Positions 12,368 through 26,355 of a stretch of 64,000 nt of DNA are shown here, in pieces. The stretch spans positions 3,100,001-3,164,000 of the forward strand of contig NZ_CP060790.1 in NCBI RefSeq assembly GCF_014489595.1, given 5' to 3'. Source of the stretch: Paenacidovorax monticola. Its GTDB lineage: Bacteria > Pseudomonadota > Gammaproteobacteria > Burkholderiales > Burkholderiaceae_C. Numbering within the stretch: the stretch's first letter is position 1; every line of letters begins with the position of its first letter. The position numbers were made by a program, and so were the translations under genes. Under the pieces are notes generated by a model. It did no database searches. It saw only the letters and a list, made by a program, of their open reading frames with translations, and was not told the origin of the DNA.

Positions 12368-13390
12368 TCAGGGATGGGGAATCCCTTCGATCGGGCACTC
12401 CTCGGTGCCGATCATGGGCCGGGTGATCGCCTCCACCGCTTCGCGCGTGCCCTCGGGGTCGCTGATCCAGCGGTTGTAGAAGCCATAGGGGCATGCCGCG
12501 ACGCCGTGGTCGCCGTCTCCTGACCGAATGACCCCGGTGTAGCCCCGGTGCAGCAGCTTGAACAGATGGTTCTCGCTCTGGCCGTTCTTGCGGAAATCGC
12601 GGATCAGGCGCGTGGACAGGGCTGCGTACTGCACGCCGTACTCCTCCTCGCCGCACTCGCCGAGCGTGCGGCCATCGAAACCGATGATCGCGCTGTGGCC
12701 GAAGTAGCTGTAGACGCCATCCCAGCCCGCCGCATTGGCCACGGCCACATAGCAGTTGTTGGCCCAGGCCATGGCCTTGGACATGAGCACCTGCTGCTCC
12801 TTGGCGGGGTACATGTAGCCCTGGCAGCGCACGATCAGCTCCGCGCCTTGCATGGCGCAGTCGCGCCAGATTTCGGGGTAATTGCCGTCGTCGCAGATGA
12901 TGAGGCTGATCTTCAGCCCCTTGGGGCCCTCGCTCACGTACGTGCGCTCGCCGGGGTACCAGCCCTCGATGGGCGTCCAGGGCATGATCTTGCGGTAGGT
13001 CTGCACGATCTCGCCCTGGTCGTTCATGAGAATGAGCGTGTTGTAGGGTGCCTTGTGCGGATGGGCCTCGTGCCGCTCGCCCGTGAGCGAGAAGACGCCC
13101 CATACCCTGGCCTTGCGGCAGGCCTCGGCGAAGACCTCGGTCTCGGCTCCCGGCACGGTGCTGGCCGTGTCGTACATCTCCTGGGCGTCGTACATGATGC
13201 CGTGGGTGCTGTACTCAGGGAAGATCACCAGGTCCAGGCCCGGCAGGCCCGACTTCATGCCGACCACCATGTCGGCGATCCTGCGCGCGTTGTCCAGCAC
13301 CTCGGCCCGGGTGTGCAGCCGGGGCATCTTGTAGTTGACCACGGCCACGCCCACCGTGTCCTTGCTGCTCGAAATGTCGCCATGCATCAT
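12368..13390 (-). CDS. amiE: Aliphatic amidase AmiE
   Basis: Hydrolyses short aliphatic amides (acetamide, propionamide) to the acid and ammonia. The 340-aa sequence follows the Pseudomonas enzyme closely, from [10 protein letters not shown] to the C-terminus. The nitrilase-fold triad is present: E59 in FPEYS, the lysine of YRKIMPW near 134, and the cysteine of [13 protein letters not shown] near 166. The close relative formamidase AmiF is less likely, judging from the N-terminus. AAGGAG lies before the first ATG, directly after the fmdB stop. It is the last gene of the urtABCDE-fmdA-fmdB-amiE operon and the family is cytoplasmic. Confidence 0.93.
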
Positions 13391-13406: not shown

Positions 13407-13768
13407 TCAGTGGCTGATCATCCAGGGGCGCTTGGACGGGAAGGCCTTGGCCCCATTGGCAGCCGTCACGGTGGCGCCCCGCTTGCCGCCCCCGCGCCGC
13501 AGCACCCGCAGCCCGCGGGATGGCGCAAGCGCCCGTAACTGCCCTCCGCGCCGTCGCGCGAACGGCGGGGCTCATGCCGCGCGCGTTCGTTGGTTTCATG
13601 GGCGCGGCGCGCGTCGGCCGTGGTGCAGGCCAGGCGCGGCGCGCTGGCGAACACGCGCGGCGAGGCCGCCGCGCACTGCGGGCAGGGCGCCGGCTCGTTG
13701 CGCTGCGCCAGACTGCGCAGCGCATCGAATCCGCCGCACTGCGCGCACAGATAGTCGTAGGTGGGCAT
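13407..13768 (-). CDS. fmdB: FmdB family zinc-ribbon protein, apparent frameshift
   Basis: A small protein starting [13 protein letters not shown], with a CxxC pair at the N-terminus, a second pair in PCPQCAAA, and a later CGCC. This is the FmdB zinc ribbon, proposed as a regulator of formamidase. The frame as read stops early at GAPP. One missing G in the run at 13489-13493 restores [16 protein letters not shown] and the end [10 protein letters not shown], a family-typical tail, giving 120 residues. GAGGAG lies seven bases before the start. The restored stop lies 16 bases before the amiE start, which explains an otherwise odd gap. Confidence 0.85.
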
Positions 13769-13784: not shown

Positions 13785-15014
13785 TCACTTGTCGGGGGCG
13801 ATGGGCAGGTCCACGCCGCCCGTGATGATCTTCTGCGGCCCCTCGGCCGTGGGGTTGATGTCGAAGTCGAAGATCTCCGTGGGCAACCACAGCGTGGCGC
13901 AGGCGTTGGGAACGTCCACCACGCCGCTGATGTGGCCCTGCACGGGCGCCGTGCCCAGCAGCGAGTAGGCCTGGGCGCCGCTGTAGCCGAACTTCTTCAG
14001 GTACTCGATGGCGTTCAGGCAGGCCTGGCGGTAGGCCACGGTCACGTCCAGGTAGTGCTGCTGGCCCTTCTCGTCCACCGAGATGCCTTCGAAGATCAGG
14101 TAGTCCTTGTAGTTGGGCGTGATGGGGCTGGGCTTGAAGATGGGGTTCTTGATGCCGTACTTGGCCATGCCGCCCTTGATGAGATTGACCTTCATGTGTA
14201 CCCAGCCAGCCATCTCGATGGCGCCGCAGAAGGTGATCTCGCCGTCGCCCTGGCTGAAGTGCAGGTCGCCCACGCTCAGGCCCGCGCCGTCCACATAGAC
14301 CGGAAAGAACACGCGCGAGCCGCGCGACAGGTCCTTGATGTCGCAGTTGCCGCCATGCTCGCGCGGCGGCACGGTGCGCGCGCCCTCGGCGGCGGCCTTG
14401 GCGCGGGCCTCGCCCTGCATCCGGCCCATGTGGGCGGTGTCGGCCTTGGGCGGGTTGGCCAGGCCGGGGATGCGCTCGGGGTCGGTGGCGATGAGGCCGG
14501 TCTCGCGTTCGTTCCAGGCAGCCAGCATCTGGGGGTCGGGCAGGCAGCCGATCAGGCCCGGGTGGATCAGGCCGGCGAAGTTGACGCCCGGAATGTGGCG
14601 GCTCTTAGTGAACATGCCATGGAAGTCCCAGATGGACTTCTGGGCCAGCGGGAAATGCTCGTCGAGGAAGCCGCCGCCGTTCTGCTTGGAGAAAAAGCCG
14701 TTGAAGCCCCACAGGCTGTCGTCGCGCGCGCCGATGTCCAGCAGGTCCACGACCAGCAGGTCGCCGGGCTCAGCACCCTTGACGCCCACGGGGCCGGACA
14801 GGAAGTGGACGGTGGACAGGTCCACGTCGCGCACGTCCTCGGCGCTGTCGTTGTTCTGGATGGCGCCGCCGGTCCAGTCATAGGTCTCCAGCTTGAACTC
14901 CGCGCCCGGCTCCACCCAGACCGCCATGGGAATGTCCGGATGCCAGCGGTTGTGCACCTGCGGGTTGTCGTAGGGGGACTGGTTGAGATCGACCTTGATC
15001 AGGGTTTCGGCCAT
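13785..15014 (-). CDS. fmdA: Formamidase (acetamidase/formamidase family)
   Basis: Hydrolyses formamide to formate and ammonia. The 409-aa protein matches FmdA of Methylophilus in length and motifs: WHPDIPMAVWVEPG near the start, DWTGGAIQNNDSAEDV, GDLLVVDLLDIG, IPGVNFAGLIHPGLIGC, REHGGNCDIKDLSRGSRV, and HFSQGDGEITFCGAIEM. The metal- and substrate-binding acidic and histidine residues of the family are in these blocks. AAGGAG lies six bases before the ATG. It is preceded by the transporter genes and followed 16 bases later by fmdB, so uptake and hydrolysis are co-transcribed. Confidence 0.95.
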   Translation of the reverse strand: MAETLIKVDLNQSPYDNPQVHNRWHPDIPMAVWVEPGAEFKLETYDWTGGAIQNNDSAEDVRDVDLSTVHFLSGPVGVKGAEPGDLLVVDLLDIGARDDSLWGFNGFFSKQNGGGFLDEHFPLAQKSIWDFHGMFTKSRHIPGVNFAGLIHPGLIGCLPDPQMLAAWNERETGLIATDPERIPGLANPPKADTAHMGRMQGEARAKAAAEGARTVPPREHGGNCDIKDLSRGSRVFFPVYVDGAGLSVGDLHFSQGDGEITFCGAIEMAGWVHMKVNLIKGGMAKYGIKNPIFKPSPITPNYKDYLIFEGISVDEKGQQHYLDVTVAYRQACLNAIEYLKKFGYSGAQAYSLLGTAPVQGHISGVVDVPNACATLWLPTEIFDFDINPTAEGPQKIITGGVDLPIAPDK

Positions 15015-15047: not shown

Positions 15048-15736
15048 TCAGACGGAGAGATAGGACTTGATGCGTTGTTCGTCGGTATCGGCGCGCGCCG
15101 TCTCATGGACCAGTCGGCCGCCCTCGATGACGAACAGCCGGTCGGCCACGTCCATGGCAAACGAGAGCACCTGCTCGCTGACCACGATGGTGAGTTGGCG
15201 CAGCTTGCGGATCTCGTTGAGGGCCTTGGCGATGTCCTTGATGATCGAAGGCTGGATGCCCTCGGTGGGCTCGTCCAGCAGCAGCACCTTGGGGTCCGTG
15301 ACCAGGGCGCGCGCGATCGCCAGCTGCTGCTGCTGCCCGCCCGAGAGGTTGCCGCCCTTGCGCCGGCGCATGTCCCACAGCACGGGGAACAGCGCGTAGA
15401 TCTCCTCGGGAATCTGGCGCGTCTTCGCGTTTTCCAGGCCGGTCTGGATGTTCTCTTCCACCGTGAGCGTGGGAAAGATCATGCGGCCCTGGGGCACGTA
15501 GGCAATGCCCTTGGCCACGCGCCGGAAGCTCTCGTCCGCCGTCACGTCCTGCCCGGCCACCGTGACCTGGCCGCTCTTGACAGGCATGACCCCATGAGGC
15601 TTTTGAACAGCGTGGTCTTGCCCATGCCGTTGCGGCCCATGATGGCGATGGTTTCGTTCTTCCGGCCTTCAAAGGAGATGCCGTGCAGCGCCTCGCTCTG
15701 GCCATAGGCCACGTACAGATCATTGACTTGCAGCAT
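15048..15736 (-). CDS. urtE: Urea/amide ABC transporter ATPase UrtE, apparent frameshift
   Basis: Second ATPase of a branched-chain-type importer. Walker A is GRNGMGKTT, the signature is LSGGQQQQLAIARAL, Walker B is LLLDEPTEGIQPSI, and the switch region is VVSEQ. The end VHET...SYLSV is UrtE-like. The frame breaks after LFKSLMG at 15590-15593, and one missing G restores GVMPVKSG and a 229-aa protein. AGGAG overlaps the urtD stop region just before the start, so translation is coupled. Identity as a urea or short-chain-amide system rests on the operon partners. Confidence 0.92.
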
Positions 15737-15745
15737 GTGCTTCTC

Positions 15746-16489
15746 CTAGTGCCCGAGGTAGACGTCGATGACCTTGGGATCGGCCTGCACCTTGTCCATG
15801 GGGCCCTCGGCGAGGATCTTTCCCTGGTGCATGACGGTGACCTTGTGGGCGATGCGCGCCACGAACTCCATGTCGTGCTCGATGACGATGACGGAGCGGT
15901 TCCTGCAGATGCGCTGCAGCAGCTCGGCCGTCAGCTCGCGCTCGCGGGCGCTCATGCCGGCGATGGGCTCGTCCAGCATCAGCAGCTCGGGCTCCTGCAT
16001 GAGCAGCATGCCGATCTCCAGCCACTGCTTCTGCCCGTGGCTGAGCAGGCCGGCCTCCGTGTCCAGGCGCTCGCCCAGGCCGATATCGGCGGCCACGGCC
16101 TGCACGCGCTCGCGCACCGCCTCGGTGCATCGGAAGGCCAGGGCGCCGAACACGGAACGGCCCTCGGGGTAGGACACCTCCAGGTTCTGGAAGACCGAGA
16201 GGTTCTCGTAGATGGACGGCGTCTGGAACTTGCGCCCAATCCCCAGGCGCACACGCTGGTGCTCGGCCATGCGCGTCAGCTCCTCGTTCTTGAACTTGAT
16301 GCTGCCGCCCGTGGCGCGCGTCTTGCCGCAGATCAGGTCCAGCAGCGTGGTCTTGCCCGCGCCGTTGGGGCCGATGATGACGCGCAGCTCGTTCCTGTCG
16401 ATGTACAGGTTCAACGCGTCGATGGCCTTGAATCCGTCGAACGAGACCGTGAGGTCTTCCACGGCCAGCGTAAAGTCGGTATTGCTCAT
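15746..16489 (-). CDS. urtD: Urea/amide ABC transporter ATPase UrtD
   Basis: A 247-aa ABC ATPase of the LivG type. Walker A is GPNGAGKTTLLD, the signature is the UrtD-characteristic LSHGQKQWLEIG (instead of LSGGQ), Walker B is LLMLDEPIAGM, and the H-loop is VIEHDMEFV. The LSHGQKQWLEIG form separates UrtD from LivG and supports the urea-family assignment. It lies between urtC and urtE with spacings of only 9 to 16 bases. Confidence 0.95.
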   Translation of the reverse strand: MSNTDFTLAVEDLTVSFDGFKAIDALNLYIDRNELRVIIGPNGAGKTTLLDLICGKTRATGGSIKFKNEELTRMAEHQRVRLGIGRKFQTPSIYENLSVFQNLEVSYPEGRSVFGALAFRCTEAVRERVQAVAADIGLGERLDTEAGLLSHGQKQWLEIGMLLMQEPELLMLDEPIAGMSARERELTAELLQRICRNRSVIVIEHDMEFVARIAHKVTVMHQGKILAEGPMDKVQADPKVIDVYLGH

Positions 16490-16505: not shown

Positions 16506-17726
16506 TCAGACGCCCTGGCGGCGGATGCCCTCGGGCATCACGGACGCCGCCGCGTCGGAAGGCTTGGCCTGCGGGGCCGATGCGGCCACCGCCGGCACGG
16601 GGGTGGTCAGCACAGCCGGCTGCTGTACTGCGGCGGCGCGAAGCGCCTCGCGCCGCCCCTTCCACCAGGGTGCGATGCGGCTCTCCCACAGGCCCGCAAG
16701 CCCCATGGGGAAGGCCATGGTCACGCTGATGAACAGGCCCGCCATGAGGAACAGCCACAGGTCGGGAAAGCTCTCCGAGAAGTAGGTCTTGCCCGCGTTG
16801 ACCAGCAGCGTGCCGTACACGGCCCCCACGAGGCTCATGCGCCCGCCCACGGCGGCATAGATCACCATCTCGATCGACGGCACGATGCCCACGAAGCTCG
16901 GCGACATGAACCCCACCTGCAGCGTGAACAACGCCCCGCCGATGCCCGACAGCGCCGCCGCCAGGCAGAACGCGAAGACCTTGAAGTTGGCCACGTCGTA
17001 GCCGGAGAAGCGCACGCGGTCTTCCTTGTCGCGCATGGCCAGCAGCAGCGTGCCCACTTTGCCGGTCTGTATCCAGCGGCACAGCACGATGGCGCCGATC
17101 AGCAGGGCCACGCACACGTAGTAGAGGATGTACTTGGCGCTGTCGGTGCGCGTGTCCCATCCCCACAGGGTCTTGAGGTCGGTCATGCCGTTGACGCCGC
17201 CCGTGTAGCCTTGCTGGCCGATGATGAGCACGGTGAGGATCAGCGCCACGGCCTGCGTGATGATGGCGAAGTACACCCCGCCCACGCGGCGCTTGAACAT
17301 GGCGAAGCTGATGATCCAGGCCAGCAGCGTGGGCACGGCGATGACGGCGGCCAGCGCAAACGGCAGGCTCTTGAACGGCAGCCAGAAGCTGGGCAGCTCG
17401 GTCAGCTGGTTCCAGTCCATGAAGTCGGGGATGCCCGGCGTGGACTGGATGGCCGTGCTCGCGGGGTCGGACGCCTCCAGCTTGAGAAACATGGCCATGG
17501 CGTAGCCGCCCAGGCCGAAGAACACGCCCTGGCCCAGGCTGAGCACGCCGCCATAGCCCCAGACCATGACCAGGCCGATGGCGACAAAGGCATAGGTCAG
17601 GTACTTGCCGACCAGGTTGAGGCGGAAGATGTCCAGCGCCAGGGGCAGCACCACCGCCAGCAGGACGGTGAGCAGCACCAGGCTGGCGAGCTGGTAGCGC
17701 TGTATCCAGGCTTTGAGGGCTTGCAT
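16506..17726 (-). CDS. urtC: Urea/amide ABC transporter permease UrtC
   Basis: A LivM-type membrane permease of 406 residues with about ten helices. Recognisable blocks are YGGVLSLGQGVFFGLGGYAMAMFL, GGVYFAIITQAVALILT, and GRMSLVGAVYGTLLVNAGKTYFSE with the YFSE motif typical of UrtC. An alanine- and proline-rich cytoplasmic tail closes the protein. I start at MQALKAW because GGAG is seven bases upstream. An in-frame ATG at 17768 has no such site. It pairs with UrtB to form the channel. Confidence 0.93.
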   Translation of the reverse strand: MQALKAWIQRYQLASLVLLTVLLAVVLPLALDIFRLNLVGKYLTYAFVAIGLVMVWGYGGVLSLGQGVFFGLGGYAMAMFLKLEASDPASTAIQSTPGIPDFMDWNQLTELPSFWLPFKSLPFALAAVIAVPTLLAWIISFAMFKRRVGGVYFAIITQAVALILTVLIIGQQGYTGGVNGMTDLKTLWGWDTRTDSAKYILYYVCVALLIGAIVLCRWIQTGKVGTLLLAMRDKEDRVRFSGYDVANFKVFAFCLAAALSGIGGALFTLQVGFMSPSFVGIVPSIEMVIYAAVGGRMSLVGAVYGTLLVNAGKTYFSESFPDLWLFLMAGLFISVTMAFPMGLAGLWESRIAPWWKGRREALRAAAVQQPAVLTTPVPAVAASAPQAKPSDAAASVMPEGIRRQGV

Positions 17727-17777
17727 GGAAAGACTCCGGTGAACTCTGGGAAATCGAGGGTCAGCCAAGGCGCCGCA

Positions 17778-18692
17778 TCAGCGGCGCACCTTGGAAGCGA
17801 ACAGCCCTTGCGGACGCATCATCAAAATCAGCACGATCAGGGACAGCGTGATCACCTTGGCCATGGAGCCGGCCATGAAGAACTCGGTGATGGACTGCGT
17901 CTGGGCGATGCCGAAGGCCGAGACCACGGTGCCCAGCAGGCTGGCCGCGCCGCCGAAGGTGACGACCAGGAAGGCGTCCACGATGTACAGCGAGCCCGAG
18001 GTGGGGCCGGTCGAGCCGATGGTGGTGAAGGCCGCGCCGGCCACGCCGGCGATGCCGCAGCCGATGGCGAAGGTCAGGCGGTCGGTGCGCTTGGTGTCGA
18101 TGCCGATGGCGTTGGCCATGACGCGGTTGCTCACCGTGGCGCGCACCCGCAGGCCCCAGCGGCTCTTGTGCAGCGCGATCAGCACGCCGGCCGTGACCAC
18201 CACGGTCAGCGCCAGCACGAACAGGCCGTTGATGGGGATGTCCAGCCCCTCGGCCGGCGCCCACGAGCCCATCAGCCAGTCCGGCAGCGTGGGGCTGACC
18301 TCCTTGGGGCCGATGAAGGTGCGAAAGCACTGCTGCAGCGCCAGGCTCACGCCCCAGGTGGCCAGCAGCGTGTCCAGCGGGCGCTTGTAGAGGTGGCGGA
18401 TCAGCCCCCACTCCACCAGCCAGCCCGCCACGAAGGCAAAGCCGAAGGCCGCCACGATGGCCAGCGGAAAGTAGTAAGGCATGAACTCGGGCGCGTGCTG
18501 CGCGGTGAGCGTGGAGCCCAGGTAGATGGTGTAGGCGCCGATGGTCATGAACTCGCCATGCGCCATGTTGATCACGCCCATCTGGCCAAAGATGATGGCC
18601 AGGCCCAGGCCCATCAGCAACAGCACGGCAAACAGGCTCAGCCCCGCGAAGCCCTGCATCAGGCCGATGTTCATCATGTCGGAAAAACTCAT
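17778..18692 (-). CDS. urtB: Urea/amide ABC transporter permease UrtB
   Basis: A LivH-type permease of 304 residues with about eight helices. Family blocks include GLGLAIIFGQMGVINMAHGEFMTIGAY (read with the usual breaks), RVRATVSNRVMANAIGID and TFGGAASLLGTVVSA. AGGAG lies seven bases before MSFSDMMN. Reading further upstream would enter repeat R2, so the longer start is rejected. The gene is separated from urtA by that repeat, unlike the tight spacing of the genes downstream. Confidence 0.94.
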   Translation of the reverse strand: MSFSDMMNIGLMQGFAGLSLFAVLLLMGLGLAIIFGQMGVINMAHGEFMTIGAYTIYLGSTLTAQHAPEFMPYYFPLAIVAAFGFAFVAGWLVEWGLIRHLYKRPLDTLLATWGVSLALQQCFRTFIGPKEVSPTLPDWLMGSWAPAEGLDIPINGLFVLALTVVVTAGVLIALHKSRWGLRVRATVSNRVMANAIGIDTKRTDRLTFAIGCGIAGVAGAAFTTIGSTGPTSGSLYIVDAFLVVTFGGAASLLGTVVSAFGIAQTQSITEFFMAGSMAKVITLSLIVLILMMRPQGLFASKVRR

Positions 18693-18876: not shown

Positions 18877-20142
18877 TTACTGATAACCCTTGGGGAAGGG
18901 ATCGGGTTTGATGAGTTCGGGGGACTCGGAGACCACCTTGAACGTGCCGTCGGGCTGCCCCATGGCGATGCGCGACTTGCTCCAGAGATGGTGGTTGGCA
19001 TCGACCTTCACGTAGCCTTCCGGCGCGGTCTTGAGTTCGATGCCAGGCGATGCCGCGACCACCTTGTCCACGTCGAAGCTCTTGGCCTTTTCCACGGCGG
19101 CCTTCCACAGCCAGGGGCCCAGGTAGCCGGCCTGGGTCACGTCGCCGATGACGGCATTGGGGCCGTACTTGGCCTTGAAGGCGGCCACGAACTTCTTGTT
19201 GTTCTCGTTGTCCAGCGTCTGGAAGTACTTCATCGAGGAATAGAAGCCCGTGAAGTTCTCGCCGCCCACGCCGGTCATCTCGTCCTCGGTCACCGACAGC
19301 GTGACCAGCAGCTGCTTGTCGCCCGTGATGCCCGCGGCCTTGAGCGCCTTGTAGAAGGCCACGTTGGAGCCGCCCACCACGGCCACGAACAGGCAGTCAG
19401 GCTTCTGCAGCTTGATCTTGTTCATCAGCGAGCCGAAGTTGGTGCTGCCCAGCGGGTAGTACTCCTCGCCGACGACCTTGCCCTTCTGGAAGTTCTCGAT
19501 GTGCTTGCGCGCGATCTTCATCGAGGTGCGCGGCCAGATGTAGTCCGAGCCGATCAGGAAGAAGGTCTTGGCCTTCTTCTCGGCCTTGGCCCAGTCCAGG
19601 CTGTACAGGATCTGCTGCGTGGCTTCCTGGCCCGTGTAGATCACGTTCTTGGACTGCTCCAGGCCTTCGTAGAAGGTGGGGTAGTACAGCAGGCCGTTTT
19701 CCTTCTCGAACACGGGCAGCACGGCCTTGCGCGAGGCGCTGGTCCAGCAGCCGAAGACGGCGGCGCAGCGGTCGTTGATGAGCAGCTTCTTGGACTTTTC
19801 GGCGAAGGTGGGCCAGTCCGAGGCGCCGTCTTCCTTGATGACCTTGATCTTGCGCCCCAGCACGCCGCCCATGGCGTTGATCTGGTCGATGGCCAGCTGC
19901 TCCGCCTGGATGGAGCCCGTCTCGGAGATCGCCATCGTGCCCGTGGCCGAGTGCAACTGGCCCACGATCACTTCCGTGTCGGTGACGGCGAGCTTGGTGG
20001 TGTTGACCTGTGCCGTGGTCTGCCCGAAGGACCACGCCGGAAGGCCGGCCACCGAGGCGGCGCCCAGCGCCTGCAGCATGCGGCGGCGGCCGGCGTCCAG
20101 GTCGCCCGGGCGGATCGCGGAGGGGTCGTGTTGGTGCTTCAT
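18877..20142 (-). CDS. urtA: Urea/amide ABC transporter substrate-binding protein UrtA
   Basis: Periplasmic receptor of 421 residues. The N-terminus has RRRMLQALGAASVAG, a twin-arginine-like export signal. The mature protein shows the UrtA/FmdD blocks VGQLHSATGTMAISE, CAAVFGCWTSASRKAVLPV, NGLLYYPTFYEGLEQSKN, and FLIGSDYIWPRTSMKI. UrtA/FmdD proteins bind urea and short-chain amides; with formamidase and amidase in the operon an amide substrate is at least as likely as urea. AAGGAG precedes the start. It is the first operon gene, divergent from the sensor kinase. Confidence 0.95.
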   Translation of the reverse strand: MKHQHDPSAIRPGDLDAGRRRMLQALGAASVAGLPAWSFGQTTAQVNTTKLAVTDTEVIVGQLHSATGTMAISETGSIQAEQLAIDQINAMGGVLGRKIKVIKEDGASDWPTFAEKSKKLLINDRCAAVFGCWTSASRKAVLPVFEKENGLLYYPTFYEGLEQSKNVIYTGQEATQQILYSLDWAKAEKKAKTFFLIGSDYIWPRTSMKIARKHIENFQKGKVVGEEYYPLGSTNFGSLMNKIKLQKPDCLFVAVVGGSNVAFYKALKAAGITGDKQLLVTLSVTEDEMTGVGGENFTGFYSSMKYFQTLDNENNKKFVAAFKAKYGPNAVIGDVTQAGYLGPWLWKAAVEKAKSFDVDKVVAASPGIELKTAPEGYVKVDANHHLWSKSRIAMGQPDGTFKVVSESPELIKPDPFPKGYQ

Positions 20143-20240
20143 AGGGGACACTCCTTGCAGGAACAAAAGGGGGTTGAAAGGGCATGTAGGCGGTGTTCCG
20201 CGCTGGAATGAAGGTTAGGGACAACCCTTGCGCAGGCCCA

Positions 20241-20256
20241 TACGTCAATTAACGTA
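20241..20256. promoter_or_regulatory. Inverted repeat, candidate response-regulator site
   Basis: TACGT-CAATTA-ACGTA lies in the 205-bp spacer between urtA (start 20142) and the divergent hybrid kinase (start 20348). It is about 100 bases from each start, a position suited to activation of the amide operon by the LuxR-type regulator at 23799. Binding is inference. Confidence 0.45.
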
Positions 20257-20347: not shown

Positions 20348-23300
20348 ATGCCACAGCCCCGCACCACCGACACCGCCCCCGCGCCGCAGACGATCTTCCG
20401 GTTCCGGCGCGAGTACAACGCGTGGGTGGCCGATGAGTCCATGGAGGACTACGCGCTGCGCTACACGCCCCACAGCTTCCGGCGCTGGAGCGAGTTCCGC
20501 GTGGCCAACACGGCCTTTGGCTCGCTGTCGTTTCTGGCGCTCGAAGCGATCGGCGGCGCCATTGCCCTGAACTACGGCTTCGCCAACGCCCTCTGGGCCA
20601 TCCTCACGGTAGGGCTGCTGATCTTCCTCACAGGCCTGCCCATCGCGTACTACGCCGCACGCTACGGGCTGGACATGGATCTGCTGACGCGCGGCGCCGG
20701 GTTCGGCTACCTGGGCTCCACCATCACGTCGCTGATCTACGCGGTGTTCACGTTCATCTTCTTCGCGCTGGAGGCCGCCATCATGGCGCTGGCGCTGCAG
20801 ATGGTGGTGGACTGGCCGCTGGAGTGGTGCTATGCGGCGTCGTCGCTGGTGATCGTGCCTCTCGCCATGCGGGGTATCACGCTCATATCGCGCCTGCAGG
20901 CCTGGACGCAGCCGCTGTGGCTGTTCCTGCTGCTCTTGCCCTTCGTGTGGGTCGCGCTCACCCAGCCACAGCTCTACCGCGACTTCGCCGGGCTGTCCGG
21001 CCTGCGCTCGGGCAGCAGCCGGTTCGATCCGCTCATGTTTGGTGCAGCGGCCGCCGTGATCTTCTCGCTGGTGGTGCAGATCGGCGAGCAGGTCGACTTT
21101 CTGCGCTTCCTGCCCAAGCGCACCGCGGCCAACCGCTGGCGCTGGTGGAACGCCGTGCTGATCGCAGGCCCCGGCTGGATCGTCATGGGCATGCTCAAGA
21201 TGGTGGGGGGCGCGTTCCTCGCATTCGCCGCACTGCAATTCGAGGTGGATGCCTCCCGCGCGGCCGAGCCCACGCAGATGTTTCTCGCGGGCTTCCAGCA
21301 GGTGCTGCAGGCCGTGGGACTGCCCAGCTTCGCCGTTGCCACGACGGTGCTCTTCGTGGTCATTTCGCAGATCAAGATCAACCTCACCAACGCCTACGCG
21401 GGCTCGCTCGCATGGTCCAATTTCTTTGCGCGCGTCACGCGCAGCCACCCCGGGCGCGTGGTCTGGCTGGTGTTCAATGTGGTCATCGCCATGCTGCTCA
21501 TGACGCTGGGCGTCTTTGGCGCACTCGAGAAAGTGCTGGCCGTGTACAGCAACGTGGCCATTGCCTGGGTAGGGGCCCTCGTGGCCGATCTGGTCATCAA
21601 CAAGCCGCTGGGCCTGAGCCCGCCCGGCATCGAGTTCCGCCGCGCGCACCTGTTCGACTTCAATCCCGTGGGGCTGGGCGCCATGCTGCTCGCAGCGATT
21701 GCGGCCTGCTGCGCCTATGCGGGCCTTCTGGGCGAAGCCGCTGCGGCCTTCTCGCCCTTCATCGCATTGGTGCTCTCGATGGCGCTGGCGCCGCTGTTCG
21801 CATGGCTGACGCAGGGCCGCTACTACCTTGCGCGGACGCCGGAGCACCTGTGGAAGCCCGGCGAGACGGTGCAGTGCGCCGTCTGCCAGAACCGCTTCGA
21901 GTCCGAGGACATGGCGCGCTGCCCCGCCTACGCCGCGCCCATCTGCTCGCTGTGCTGCTCGCTCGAGTCGCGCTGCCACGACCGCTGCAAGCGCGGCTCG
22001 CGCGCCGGCGACCAGCTGCGCGCCCTGGCTGCCGCACTGCTGCCGCAACGGTGGGCCGCCCGGGTCAACTTCCGCATCGGCCAGTACCTGGTGGTCATGC
22101 TGTCGCTGTGCGCCGTCATGGCGTTCATGGTGGGGGTGGTCTACATGCAGGAGAGCCTGCAGGCACAGGACGATGCCCTGCGCAGGCCCTTCATCAAGGT
22201 CTTTGCCCTGCTGGCCCTGCTGGGCGCCGTGTCCGCCTGGTGGGTGGTGCTCAGCACCGACAGCCGCCGCATGGCGCAGGACGAGTCGGAGCGGCAAACC
22301 CAGCTGCTGCTGCAGGAGATCGAGGCGCACAAGCGCACCGACGCCGAATTGCAGGCCGCGAAGGACCAGGCGGACCAGGCCAACCAGGCCAAGACACGCT
22401 ATGTTGCCGGCATGACGCACGAACTGCGCTCGCCGCTCAACAGCATCCTCGGCTACACACAGATCCTGCTCAAGAACCCCCAGGTCGATGGCTGGATCCG
22501 CGAGACGCTCTCCACCATGCAGCAAAGCGGACAGCACCTGCATGCGCTGATCGACGGCTCGCTGGAACTCGCGCGCATCGAGGCCGGCCGGCTGCGGCTG
22601 GATCTGGCGCCCCTGCCCCTGCCCGGCCTGATCGACAGCATCGAGGCCATGATGCGCCCCCAGGCGCAGGCCAAGGGGCTGCAGTTCACCGTCGAAACCC
22701 TGGGCAGCATGCCGGCGTGGGTCCGTGCCGACGCCAAGCGCCTGCGCCAGATCCTCATCAACCTGCTGTCCAATGCCGTGCGCTTCACCGCGCGCGGCGA
22801 GGTCCGCCTGCGCCTGGACTTCCGGGCCCACGTGGCGCGGATCGAAGTGATCGACACCGGCATCGGCATCGAGCCGCAGGACCTGGAGCGCATCTTCGTG
22901 CCCTTCGAGCGCGGCAGCGCCGGGCGCCGCGCCAGCGACGCCGGCACGGGGCTGGGGCTCACCATCACCCACCTGCTGACCGAACTCATGGGGGCCAGCT
23001 CACGCTCGCCAGCACCCCGGGCCAGGGCAGCACCTTCACCGTGCGGCTGTACCTGCCCAGCATGGCGGCCGACGCGGCCTCGGCCGCCGCCCATGGCGCC
23101 GCCACGCTGCGCCCCGTGATCGGGTATCTGGCCCCCCGGCGCACGTTGCTGGTGGTGGACGACCAGCCCCTGCAGCGCCAACTGCTGGCGGGCCTGCTGG
23201 TGCCGCTGGGCTTTGACGTGCGCGAAGCGGCCAGCGGGCGCGAATGCCTGGAGATCGTGCGCCAGAGTCCGCCGGACCTGGTGCTGCTCGACATCACCAT

Positions 23301-23799
23301 GGACGACCTGGACGGCTGGCAGACCGCCGCGCTGCTGCGCGGGCACTGGTCCGCCGCACAGCTGCCGGTGGTGTTCGTGTCGGCCAACCTGTTCGAGAAC
23401 GAGGCCCCCCGCCTGGCCGACGCCCAGTGCCAGGGGTTCGTGGGCAAGCCGGTCATCGAATCGGAGCTGCTGCAGGTGCTGGAGCGGGCGCTGGAGCTGG
23501 AGTGGGTGCGGGACAACACCCCGCTCGTGCTCCGCCCACCGCACGCCGCCGAGACCGCTGCCCCAGCGGATGACACGCCCCGAAACCCGTCAGCACTCCT
23601 GCCCGATGCCCTGTGCGAGCGGTTGATCCGCCTGGCGCGCTCGGGACAGGCCGTGGCGCTGCGCGAGTGCCTGCGCCAGGCACTCGCGGACCATCCCGAG
23701 CAGGCGGCCACCCTGGGCCCCCTGCAGGCCTGTGCCGATCGCTTCGACTTCGACGCCCTCATCGCGCTCCTGCGGGATACCCAGGACGACACGCTGTAA
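20348..23799 (+). CDS. NCS1-permease / zinc-cluster / hybrid histidine kinase fusion, apparent frameshift
   Basis: A 1150-aa fusion after correction. Residues about 30-490 form a 12-helix NCS1 (purine-cytosine permease type) domain. Residues 508-547 hold a cysteine-rich cluster (CAVC, then CPAYAAPICSLCC, then CHDRC), probably zinc-binding. Two more helices and a coiled linker follow. HisKA has H690 in MTHELRSPLNS, HATPase_c has DTGIGI and GTGLGLTI, and a receiver domain begins at VVDDQP near 935 with aspartate near 980. The C-terminal region is HPt-like in size. The frame breaks at 22990-22994 (one missing G). Divergent from urtABCDE-fmdAB-amiE, it likely senses amide or urea through the permease domain. 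Function is inference. Confidence 0.88.
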
Positions 23800-24709
23800 T
23801 GGAACCCTCGACCATGCCTCCTTCCAGCCACCCGCACGTGATCCTCGTGGTGGACGACGCCCTGGACACCTTGCGCATGCTGTGCGACGCCCTGAACGCC
23901 GAGGGCTACACCGTCCTCGCGGCCCGCGATGCCGAAGAAGCGCTGCAGCGCTTCGATCTCACCGTGCCCGATGGCGTGCTGCTGGACGCGGTGATGCCCG
24001 GCATCGATGGGTTCACGCTGTGCCGCCAGTTGAAGGCGACGCCCCCCTGGTCCCACGTTCCCGTGGTCTTCATGACGGGACTGTCCGAGACCGAACAGAT
24101 CCTGCGCGGCTTTGCGAGCGGAGGCGTGGACTATGTCGTCAAGCCGCTACGCATTCCCGAAGTCCTGGCCCGGCTCGCCACCCACGTGCGCAACGCCCAG
24201 GCCACACGGCTGGCCCGGGAGGCCGTGGACGTGGCGGGGCTGGGCGTGGTGGTGCTCGATGGCCAGGGGCGCGTGGCGTGGCGCTCCCCCCAGGCGTCGC
24301 GCTGGCTGGAGGACGCGTTCGCGGCGGCAGCCTCTCCCCTGGACGCGGCGAGCACCTGGCTGCGCCAGGCCGAGCAGGCTGGCAGCCTGCCGCTGGCCCT
24401 GCCCGACGGGCGGCAACTGCTCGCGCGGCACCTGGGCGCCAGCGGCCTGGCCGAATCCATGCTGCTGCTGAGCCATGCCGCCCCGAGGGCGCTGCTCCGC
24501 GCAGGCTGCAGCAGGTGGCGCTCACGCCGCGCGAGACGGAGGTCCTTTCCTGGCTGAGCAAGGGCAAGACCAACCGGGACATCGCCGACATCCTGGGCAT
24601 GAGCCACCGCACCGTCAACAAGCACCTGGAACACATCTTCGAGAAGCTCGGGGTGGAAACCCGCACGGCCGCGGCGGCGGTCGCTGGCCAATTGCTGCAG
24701 CCCGGCTGA
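23799..24709 (+). CDS. LuxR-type response regulator, apparent frameshift
   Basis: A receiver domain begins at VILVVDDALDTLRML with the phospho-aspartate in LLDAVMPGIDGF and the lysine in VVKPL. A middle segment with a PAS-like stretch (GLGVVVLDGQGRVAWRSP) follows. The C-terminal LuxR helix-turn-helix reads LTPRETEVLSWLSKGKTNRD, then IADILGMSHRTVNKHLEHIF. The frame breaks at 24481-24484, and one missing C restores SHAAPEGAAPRRLQQVALTP and 303 residues. The ATG overlaps the kinase stop (TAATG), so the pair is co-translated and almost certainly a cognate couple. The natural target is the divergent amide operon. Confidence 0.88.
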
Positions 24710-24772: not shown

Positions 24773-25231
24773 CTAGGCGGGAACACCCGCCGCCGAAGCG
24801 GGCAGGCCGAACAGGTGATCGAACACCCAGTTGAACACGAAGGTGTAGCAGAGGAAGAACACGATCAGGCCCAGGTCCATCACGAACGCGTGCCAGAGGC
24901 TGATGCCGAACCACCACGCGAACAGCGGCACCAGCGTGAACACCAGCCCGCCCTCGAAACCGATGGCGTGGGCCACGCGGCGGGCCACGCTGCGCCCGCG
25001 CACCGGCTGGCGCGACTCCCAGCGCTCGAAGGCCCAGTTGAAGACGATGTTCCAGACGATGGCGATGACCGAGGCCGCCGCGGCCACCACGCCCGAGTGG
25101 CCCGCGCCCTGGCCCGTGAGCAGGGCCAGGCCCGCCGTGGCGGCCACGATGGCGATCAGCTCGTACAGCGTCACGTAGATCACGCGGCGCTTCAGGCCCT
25201 GCAGCCCGAAGAGGGTGGGTTTCTTGTCCAT
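24773..25231 (-). CDS. PACE family efflux transporter (AceI-like)
   Basis: A 152-aa inner-membrane protein with four helices arranged as two tandem bacterial transmembrane-pair domains. The signature motifs are present: RVIYVTLYE and RRVAHAIGFE at the start of each half, and WNIVFNWAFERWE and FNWVFDHLFG at the ends. PACE proteins export biocides such as chlorhexidine and short-chain diamines by proton exchange, using the glutamate of the first motif. It is divergent from a LysR regulator, the usual aceI/aceR arrangement, with an inverted repeat between them. No clear ribosome binding site is seen. Confidence 0.92.
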   Translation of the reverse strand: MDKKPTLFGLQGLKRRVIYVTLYELIAIVAATAGLALLTGQGAGHSGVVAAAASVIAIVWNIVFNWAFERWESRQPVRGRSVARRVAHAIGFEGGLVFTLVPLFAWWFGISLWHAFVMDLGLIVFFLCYTFVFNWVFDHLFGLPASAAGVPA

Positions 25232-25306: not shown

Positions 25307-26355
25307 ATGGCCTTCAACTCCGACAGCGTCCAGGTCTTTCTCGCCGTGCTTGACCGTGGCTCGTTCTCAGCGGCCGCACGCGCCCTCTCGCGCGTGCCCT
25401 CGGCCGTGAGCATGACCATCGCCCACCTGGAGGCCGAGCTGGCCGTGCAGCTCTTCGACCGCAGCGGGCGCGAGCCCCGCCCCACCCCGCGGCCCGCGCG
25501 CTCGAACCCCAGGCCCGGCTGCTGGCCGCACAGCTGCAGCAGCTCAACGCGCAGGCGCTCGCGCTCACGCAGGGGCTGGAGGAACGCCTCACGCTGGCCA
25601 TCGCGCCCGAACTGCTGGCCGCGCGCTGGACCGGCCCCGTGGCCGCACTGGCGCAGGAATATCCGCTGCTGCAGGTCGAAGTGCTGGCCGCGCCGCAGGC
25701 CGACGCGCTCGCGCTGCTGCACCAGGGCCGGGCCCAGCTCGCGCTGGTGTTCGAGCGGCCCAGCATCGACGGGCGCGAGGGCTTTCAGGAAGTGGGCACC
25801 GAGACCCTCGTGGCCGTGATGGCGCCCCGCCACCCCGTGCTGGAGGCCGCGCGCGAGGCGGCCCGCGCCCGGGGCGCCGCGCCCGAGGCCGCGCGCCTGC
25901 GCGAGGAACACCTCACGCACACGCGCCAGATCGTCGTGGCCAGCCGCGACCTCGCCCAGACCGACCCGCGCTTCGTGTTCGCGCGCCACCACTGGCGCAC
26001 CGACAGCCACCTGGCGGCGCTGGGCCTGATCGAGGCCGGCCTGGGCTGGGGCTGGCAGCCGCGCGCCCTGGTGCAGCCCCGCATCGAGGCCGGCACGCTC
26101 GTGGAAATGCCGTTCGAAAACCTCAGCAACGGCGCCGCGCTGTGGGTGGACGTGGTCTGGTCCAAGGAGCGCCCGCTGGGCCTGGGCGCGCAGCGCTTTG
26201 TGGCGCTGATGGCGGCTTCGGCGCAGCCCGTGCCGGACACCCCCTTCCATCCATGCTCTGCGCTTGATAGACAAGCGCAATCAGCTATCCGCTGGATAGC
26301 TAAAACGCCCGCGCTCCAGGGGCTGCCAGGTGGCGCAGGCGGGCCACGTCCTTGA
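25307..26355 (+). CDS. LysR family regulator of the PACE gene, apparent frameshift
   Basis: The N-terminal helix-turn-helix (SVQVFLAVLDRGSFSAAARAL, read in two parts, then VPSAVSMTIAHLEAEL) is LysR-like. The frame breaks in the C run at 25495-25498, and one extra C restores PRPTPAARALEPQARLLA and the effector domain (LTLAIAPELLAARW onward). The corrected length is 349 residues, about 40 more than usual, because the last part is read through repeat R3 at 26260-26301. The native C-terminus probably ended near PFHPC. It is homologous in context to AceR, the activator of aceI, and its 3' end overlaps the convergent Crp gene. Confidence 0.85.
26260..26301. repeat. Repeat R3 with two hairpins between convergent genes
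   Basis: GCGCTTG/CAAGCGC around five bases is followed by AGCTATCC/GGATAGCT around GCT. It carries the Crp gene stop codon and could terminate both convergent genes. The copy at 56547-56588 has the same architecture, and shorter relatives lie at 34032, 44241 and 54361. Confidence 0.75.

Follow-up and report, generated by a model that had tools for sequence, protein, structure and literature searches.

The window analysed here is a 64,000-nucleotide stretch of the Paenacidovorax monticola genome (NCBI RefSeq assembly GCF_014489595.1, contig NZ_CP060790.1, positions 3,100,001 to 3,164,000), in which genes for a hybrid histidine kinase and an adjacent LuxR/NarL-type response regulator lie divergent from an operon for the uptake and hydrolysis of urea and amides, urtABCDE-fmdAB-amiE (Table 1). 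The kinase begins with a transporter-like head resembling the NCS1 family, which is followed by a cluster of eight cysteines, two long helices and the signalling domains, and a conserved palindrome lies between urtA and the kinase gene. Taking the window together with its relatives, we consider it probable (roughly 0.7) that a transporter-derived receptor kinase controls the divergent operon.

Table 1 Kinase, regulator, operon and neighbouring features, in window coordinates.
Feature	Position	Strand	Remarks
Hybrid kinase gene, first open piece	20348..23119	+	NCS1-like head, cysteine cluster, two helices, HisKA, HATPase_c; frame-broken near 22990
NCS1-like transporter head	20453..21820	+	About residues 36-491
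Eight-cysteine cluster	21875..21988	+	Residues 510-547
Two further long helices, after cysteine cluster	22070..22303	+	Residues 575-605 and 608-652, AF2 secondary structure
HisKA	22388..22588	+	Residues 681-747, E 1.3e-14
HATPase_c	22730..22999	+	Residues 795-884, E 7.3e-21; domain end at frame break
Hybrid kinase gene, second open piece	22990..23799	+	ATPase domain end, receiver, C-terminal tail
Receiver domain of kinase	23149..23481	+	E 1.8e-22
LuxR/NarL-type response regulator gene	23799..24709	+	Overlaps kinase stop; frame-broken near 24490
Palindrome TACGTCAATTAACGTA, candidate operator between urtA and kinase gene	20241..20256	.	Conserved
urtA, urea/amide-binding protein	18877..20142	-	TIGR03407 508 bits, cut-off 493
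urtB	17778..18692	-	TIGR03409 390 bits, cut-off 250; span from comparison with relatives
urtC	16506..17768	-	TIGR03408 440 bits, cut-off 296
urtD	15746..16489	-	TIGR03411 380 bits, cut-off 304
urtE	15048..15736	-	Frame-broken near 15590-15640; TIGR03410 266 bits on 3' piece, under 286 cut-off
fmdA, formamidase	13785..15014	-	NF045496 768 bits, cut-off 500
fmdB-like small zinc-ribbon protein	13466..13768	-	Zn_ribbon_8 45.5 bits, cut-off 34.4
amiE, aliphatic amidase	12368..13390	-	NF009802 712 bits, cut-off 427
LysR-type gene	about 25307-26240		Break at about 25486, pieces confirmed

A preliminary description of the stretch had proposed an NCS1-type 12-helix domain, a cysteine-rich cluster, a histidine kinase and a receiver in one chain, coupled to a LuxR regulator. 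Domain searches recovered all three signalling domains of the kinase, and the next gene was found to carry both a receiver and a GerE (LuxR) domain, the combination that defines the NarL/LuxR type. The single chain did not hold for the window itself: the kinase's frame 2 ends with a stop at 23119, whereas frame 1 encodes the receiver, so the domains of a hybrid kinase are all present in two frames, and the regulator gene is split in the same way. The divergent operon was as described. NCBIfam models identified urtA to urtD, fmdA and amiE above their cut-offs and urtE by a piece beside its frame break that scored below its own, and an FmdB-like zinc-ribbon frame is located between fmdA and amiE, as it is in relatives. 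Upstream of urtA there is also an imperfect 14-base direct repeat (20145-20158 and 20218-20231, 73 bases apart).

To place the locus, relatives were gathered in three samples: 73 named loci found with peptides of the window, all of which were used and which are biased to close relatives; 46 stretches from the order, out of 51 places outside the own genome (G126, G236, G091, G259 and G164 were left out); and 39 new loci from the phylum, out of 46 new kinase places (one of G674 was left out, plus G682, G429, G561, G684, G536 and G546, and L213 is a stand-alone permease). One head (L035, L124) occurs in two sets. Genes of the urt, fmd, ami or ure type, counted at 38% identity or more within the fetched stretch, were found near the kinase in 70/73, 39/46 and 38/39 loci of the three samples, and 69, 33 and 35 loci remained at a threshold of 50%; in two of the three loci lacking them in the first sample, less than 700 bases upstream were available. 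The regulator followed the kinase directly in 64/64, 43/44 and 36/38 loci that were long enough. The association is not a matter of chance, because the same neighbourhood recurs across the phylum, and the possibility raised in the preliminary description that homologues rarely adjoin urt or fmd genes is clearly contradicted. A gene of the chlorhexidine efflux transporter family (PF05232), located after the regulator on the opposite strand (24776-25231), is present in only some of the 73 loci.

The architecture itself is well kept in these relatives. A single frame holds head, kinase and receiver in 103 of the 107 relatives in which over 5 kb of sequence follows the start of the head; two (L075 and L076) are broken, and in two more (L054 and L160) the frame is open and no receiver was matched. 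In the phylum sample one frame was found in 36 of 38, the remaining two (L248 and L250) being shorter and lacking a receiver match. Their open frames run to 894 and 899 residues; FmdA is encoded downstream in the same orientation, and no gene matching the LuxR regulator occupies its usual position. Stop-to-stop kinase frames in the order sample measured mostly about 1,130-1,250 residues, some reaching 1,695 and a few being shorter. The kinase system is real and widespread.

The NCS1 type of the head is supported by its fold, a 12-helix LeuT-type arrangement for which CodB and Mhp1 rank first, with a gap to other LeuT-fold families. A stand-alone relative bridges the two groups, being 28% identical over the head and matching PF02133 at 36.4 bits (cut-off 23.5). 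In the alignment, a D-x-x-R motif after helix 6 is common to the heads and every NCS1 row shown, and an N-x-Y motif in helix 8 is shared with some NCS1 rows only. The 14 Pfam families reported for the 53 heads (E up to 10) do not include PF00474 (SSF), and no STAC family was named among them, Pfam not having been checked for holding a STAC model. Lys343 and Ile344 are invariant in the heads and are aligned (by alignment only, with one gap nearby) to a Ser/Thr pair in transmembrane helix (TM) 8 of Mhp1, which we take to be sodium-site residues; in CodB, a sodium role is given to Thr278 and Thr279 in the cited passage of PMC9379551. According to the same source, in the part cited, the aromatic sandwich residue in TM3 of NCS1 transporters is predominantly Trp. 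The head has Phe138 at this position, which is still aromatic but is not the Trp of the NCS1 proteins in the alignment.

The cysteines of the cluster (510, 513, 525, 533, 536, 537, 543 and 547) were invariant across the 53 aligned sequences, which bears out the cysteine-rich cluster of the preliminary description. The cluster resembles the Pfam family Prok-RING_1 below threshold only, and it may plausibly bind a metal. The AF2 model places small strands at the cysteines and then the two long helices, which, if they lie in the membrane as we suppose from the model, would form a transmembrane hairpin leading into the kinase.

Co-occurrence across the order pointed in the same direction as the gene neighbourhoods. 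In 300 genomes, the kinase was found in 50, FmdA over its cut-off in 40 and a refined form of the palindrome in 28. FmdA accompanied the kinase in 33 of 50 genomes compared with 7 of the 250 others (nominal Fisher P 1e-24), and the refined palindrome did so in 19 of 50 compared with 9 of 250 (nominal Fisher P 1e-10), the pattern having been derived from loci of relatives, partly from the order stretches themselves. At least one copy lay on the contig of the kinase in 18 of these 19 genomes, the exception being G025. Seven genomes carried FmdA without the kinase, and the only one of them to have a palindrome has it on a different contig from its over-cut-off fmdA.

The palindrome, which the preliminary description had not noticed, was examined further at the level of positions, with gene starts estimated from alignments. 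TACGT-N6-ACGTA has a single match in the window at 0 or 1 mismatch, where 0.10 was expected. This strict site occurs 64 times in the 1,364,276 bases of the 73 loci, compared with 1, 0, 0 and 0 copies of four control palindromes, and 63 of the 64 fall in the 400 bp that precede urtA, amiE, fmdA or the kinase. A second strict site, 71-84 bp before amiE, is present in four loci (L036, L039, L040 and L055). The A preceding the palindrome is invariant, and outside positions -4 to +16 none of the printed columns exceeds 0.5 bit. One family from another class (L214-L221) has ATACG-N8-CGTAT in 8/8 loci, and 6/8 further loci have it as well (maximum over 20 shuffles, 2). Of 159 loci, 98 have the relaxed form TACG-N8-CGTA in the 400 bp that precede the kinase, compared with about 0.75 expected from the 34 copies elsewhere in 2.88 Mb and with 2, 3, 0, 0, 2 and 4 loci for six control palindromes. 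It tracks the divergent neighbour, occurring in 94 of 105 loci with a divergent urt, fmd or ami gene vs 3 of 53 without one (duplicate head removed). Most of the 34 other copies (24) were located at most 300 bp upstream of urtA-like (13), fmdA (6) or amiE (5) starts, and 10 are unassigned. The presence of the palindrome at urtA, fmdA and amiE promoters supports direct control of the operon, with the LuxR-type regulator as the presumed binding protein. In ten loci (L144, L148, L150, L152, L154, L155, L163, L229, L230 and L251) a relaxed site is found several kb away from the kinase, 15-68 bp ahead of a distant UrtA-like gene (38-42% identical), and because the site precedes this gene, a second importer type may belong to the regulon.

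Further members of the family are found in related settings. The own genome encodes a second kinase (L084 9987-14535) with a head 52-55% identical, divergent from a urease gamma gene, in which HisKA, HATPase_c and receiver share one frame; its own receiver-GerE regulator is also in one frame. The regulators of this paralogue and of two other own-family urease-side paralogues (L149 and L161) carry an SPATVKKH recognition helix. A sigma54-like sequence, TGGCATGGAATCTGCA, lies just upstream of the L084 paralogue, with similar ones in L149, L161 and L252; on the kinase strand such sequences were found in 4/6 own-family urease-side paralogue loci and in 8/159 overall. In L213 (7949-12984), a stand-alone NCS1 permease related to the head, which from its setting is a candidate amide permease, is followed by genes for a CN-hydrolase, a UrtA-like binding protein and an AmiR_N/ANTAR regulator. 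Some family members sit beside nitrogen-fixation genes: NifH- and nitrogenase-component-1-type genes (nifH, nifD) lie upstream of the member in L142 (4765-7209). In the nitrogen-fixation cluster of Dechloromonas aromatica, a table in PMC2907700 places two proteins ahead of UrtA, a histidine kinase of 1,131 residues and a CheY-like receiver of 308, and by size and place this kinase is probably a family member.

We propose that the 12-helix NCS1-like head would bind urea or a short-chain amide from the periplasm and that its movement would pass through the cytoplasmic eight-cysteine cluster and the two-helix hairpin to the kinase. The kinase would then phosphorylate the receiver that it carries and also, either directly or through a relay, the adjacent LuxR-type regulator, which would bind ATACG(T/C)-N6-(A/G)CGTA between urtA and the kinase gene and activate urtABCDE-fmdAB-amiE. 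The architecture in relatives, the NCS1-like fold, the gene linkage and the conservation and promoter position of the palindrome were obtained by direct computation; we infer the topology of the linker, the route of phosphotransfer and activation rather than repression. Gene context points to urea or an amide as the ligand, because genes for the import and hydrolysis of urea, formamide and aliphatic amides adjoin the kinase, a paralogue lies on the urease side, and the stand-alone permease has an amidase-type setting. The earlier proposal that the permease domain senses an amide, urea or a ureide and switches on the operon is partly supported: linkage and palindrome speak for control of the operon, and binding of amide or urea by the head is suggested by context.

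The reading that needs the fewest assumptions is that the adjoining operon is controlled by a two-component system whose sensor derives from a transporter, and the head-kinase is a strong candidate sensor for urea and small-amide nitrogen sources, because its gene partnership and the common DNA site are kept in many bacteria. Several observations weigh against it. PF02133 was listed neither for the window protein nor for any of the 53 aligned sequences at E up to 10, so that the NCS1 assignment of the preliminary description stands by fold and bridging relative and fails by Pfam profile; judged by these comparisons, the head is homologous to PF02133 and, by Pfam's rule, no member. In seven of the 46 order-level loci the stretch retrieved lacked all of the tested genes, and the Fisher P values overstate the evidence, the genomes and loci being related. 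The relaxed site was missing upstream of the kinase in 61 of 159 loci, 11 of which have a divergent urt, fmd or ami neighbour, and the refined one in 31 of the 50 kinase genomes. The recognition helix S-x-RTVNKH is present in 50/51 regulators with a strict site and also in 27/36 without, and is therefore not discriminating. Finally, kinase and regulator are frame-broken in the window. These last findings bear on two other explanations. That the palindrome is the site of another regulator, with the two-component pair controlling something else, would fit the kinase genomes lacking it, the nine non-kinase genomes that have one somewhere and the uninformative helix; we regard it as very unlikely, given that the site has at least one copy on the contig of the kinase in 18 of the 19 kinase genomes that carry it, is present in one of the seven genomes with FmdA alone and, in rearranged loci, stays with urtA, fmdA or amiE. 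That the genes of this strain are decaying pseudogenes and the system is dead there would account for the breaks in kinase, regulator and urtE, and we hold this to be quite unlikely. Against four relatives, a count by hand gave breaks in urtE, the kinase, the regulator and the LysR-type gene, 4 of the 11 genes that were compared in the region from 12.3 to 26.3 kb, and UreC elsewhere in the genome (L084 6890-8594; G000:C1:4298000-4316000) matches its relative in three frames, that is, it is split twice. Assembly indels are the probable cause, because urtE, the LysR-type gene and UreC are also broken and identity to relatives is 55-92% on both sides of the breaks, staying high at most of them; most relatives, moreover, are intact.

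The remaining alternatives concern what the head does. It may be a working permease that imports urea or amides, with the kinase reading the transport cycle, as has been proposed for CbrA, which is described in the passages cited as a transceptor with both transport and kinase activity (PMC13022988, PMC7096432). The transporter fold and the amidase-type gene cluster of the stand-alone relative agree with this, but the invariant Lys343 and Ile344, as aligned with the Mhp1 sodium-site positions, would speak against coupling of transport to sodium, the neighbouring genes encode an ABC importer, and Ks-Amt5, according to the part of PMC5764959 cited, binds ammonium without translocating it. We consider transport-coupled signalling less likely than not. 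The head could instead report a general nitrogen or metal state, such as ammonium, or metal or redox state at the cysteines, with the operon as one output. The eight invariant cysteines, the sigma54-like sequences at urease-side paralogues, the nifH- and nifD-type genes in L142 and the Dechloromonas pair before urtA (PMC2907700) would all suit such a role, which nevertheless seems unlikely, since most loci link to genes for urea and amide uptake and hydrolysis and the stand-alone relative is also found among amidase-type genes.

Operon control by a transporter-derived receptor kinase, our preferred reading, can be extended, tentatively and at less than even odds, to a widespread class of dedicated urea and amide receptors. 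An NCS1 transporter would have become a sodium-independent sensor, with Lys343 replacing sodium, the nucleobase sandwich remodelled to hold a small ligand that is not aromatic and the eight-cysteine domain carrying or gating the signal. Amide and urea uptake would be served by one copy, whose LuxR regulator and operator are conserved in at least two of the phylum's classes, and urease by the paralogue. The idea of a lysine standing in for sodium comes from other LeuT-fold transporters. The constant gene partner and DNA site of this kinase make the sensing question testable in one strain with few mutants. Titles and abstract openings among the literature matches listed contained no description of an NCS1-headed histidine kinase. 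Uptake operons for urea and formamide are common, and the cited passages of the review PMC10781810 name no sensor kinase for them.

The proposed system can be set beside several that are known. Its head is matched best in fold by CodB, Mhp1 and allied NCS1 transporters, from which it differs by its detection below the Pfam threshold, by Phe138 and Lys343/Ile344, and by the kinase fusion. In other bacteria, short amides are sensed by AmiC/AmiR and urea by UreR, which switch on amidase or urease genes; AmiC/AmiR is a soluble binding-protein/ANTAR pair and UreR an AraC-type regulator, and neither is a membrane receptor kinase. An AmiR-like gene lies beside the stand-alone NCS1 relative in L213. 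The fmdCABDEF cluster of Methylophilus methylotrophus likewise combines formamidase with amide and urea uptake genes and is induced by formamide and urea, but the cited passages of PMC10781810 name a putative positive regulator in it and no sensor kinase. The SLC5-STAC kinases CbrA and CrbS, too, join a head of transporter fold to a histidine kinase and control catabolic genes; they work with CbrB and CrbR, the latter described in the cited part of PMC5715377 as a LuxR-family regulator acting at an inverted repeat. Their head is of the SSS type with STAC, whereas here it is NCS1-like, the linker consists of the eight-cysteine cluster and two helices, and the genes are urt, fmd, ami and ure. 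In the ammonium sensor kinase Ks-Amt5, an uptake transporter has likewise been recruited as a sensory module (PMC5764959, in the part cited), with an Amt domain and ammonium in place of a head that is NCS1-like by fold and lies beside urea and amide genes. The present head, which by fold is not an Amt, would be a third transporter fold recruited for sensing, besides SSS and Amt, and would help to tell binding from transport as the signal.

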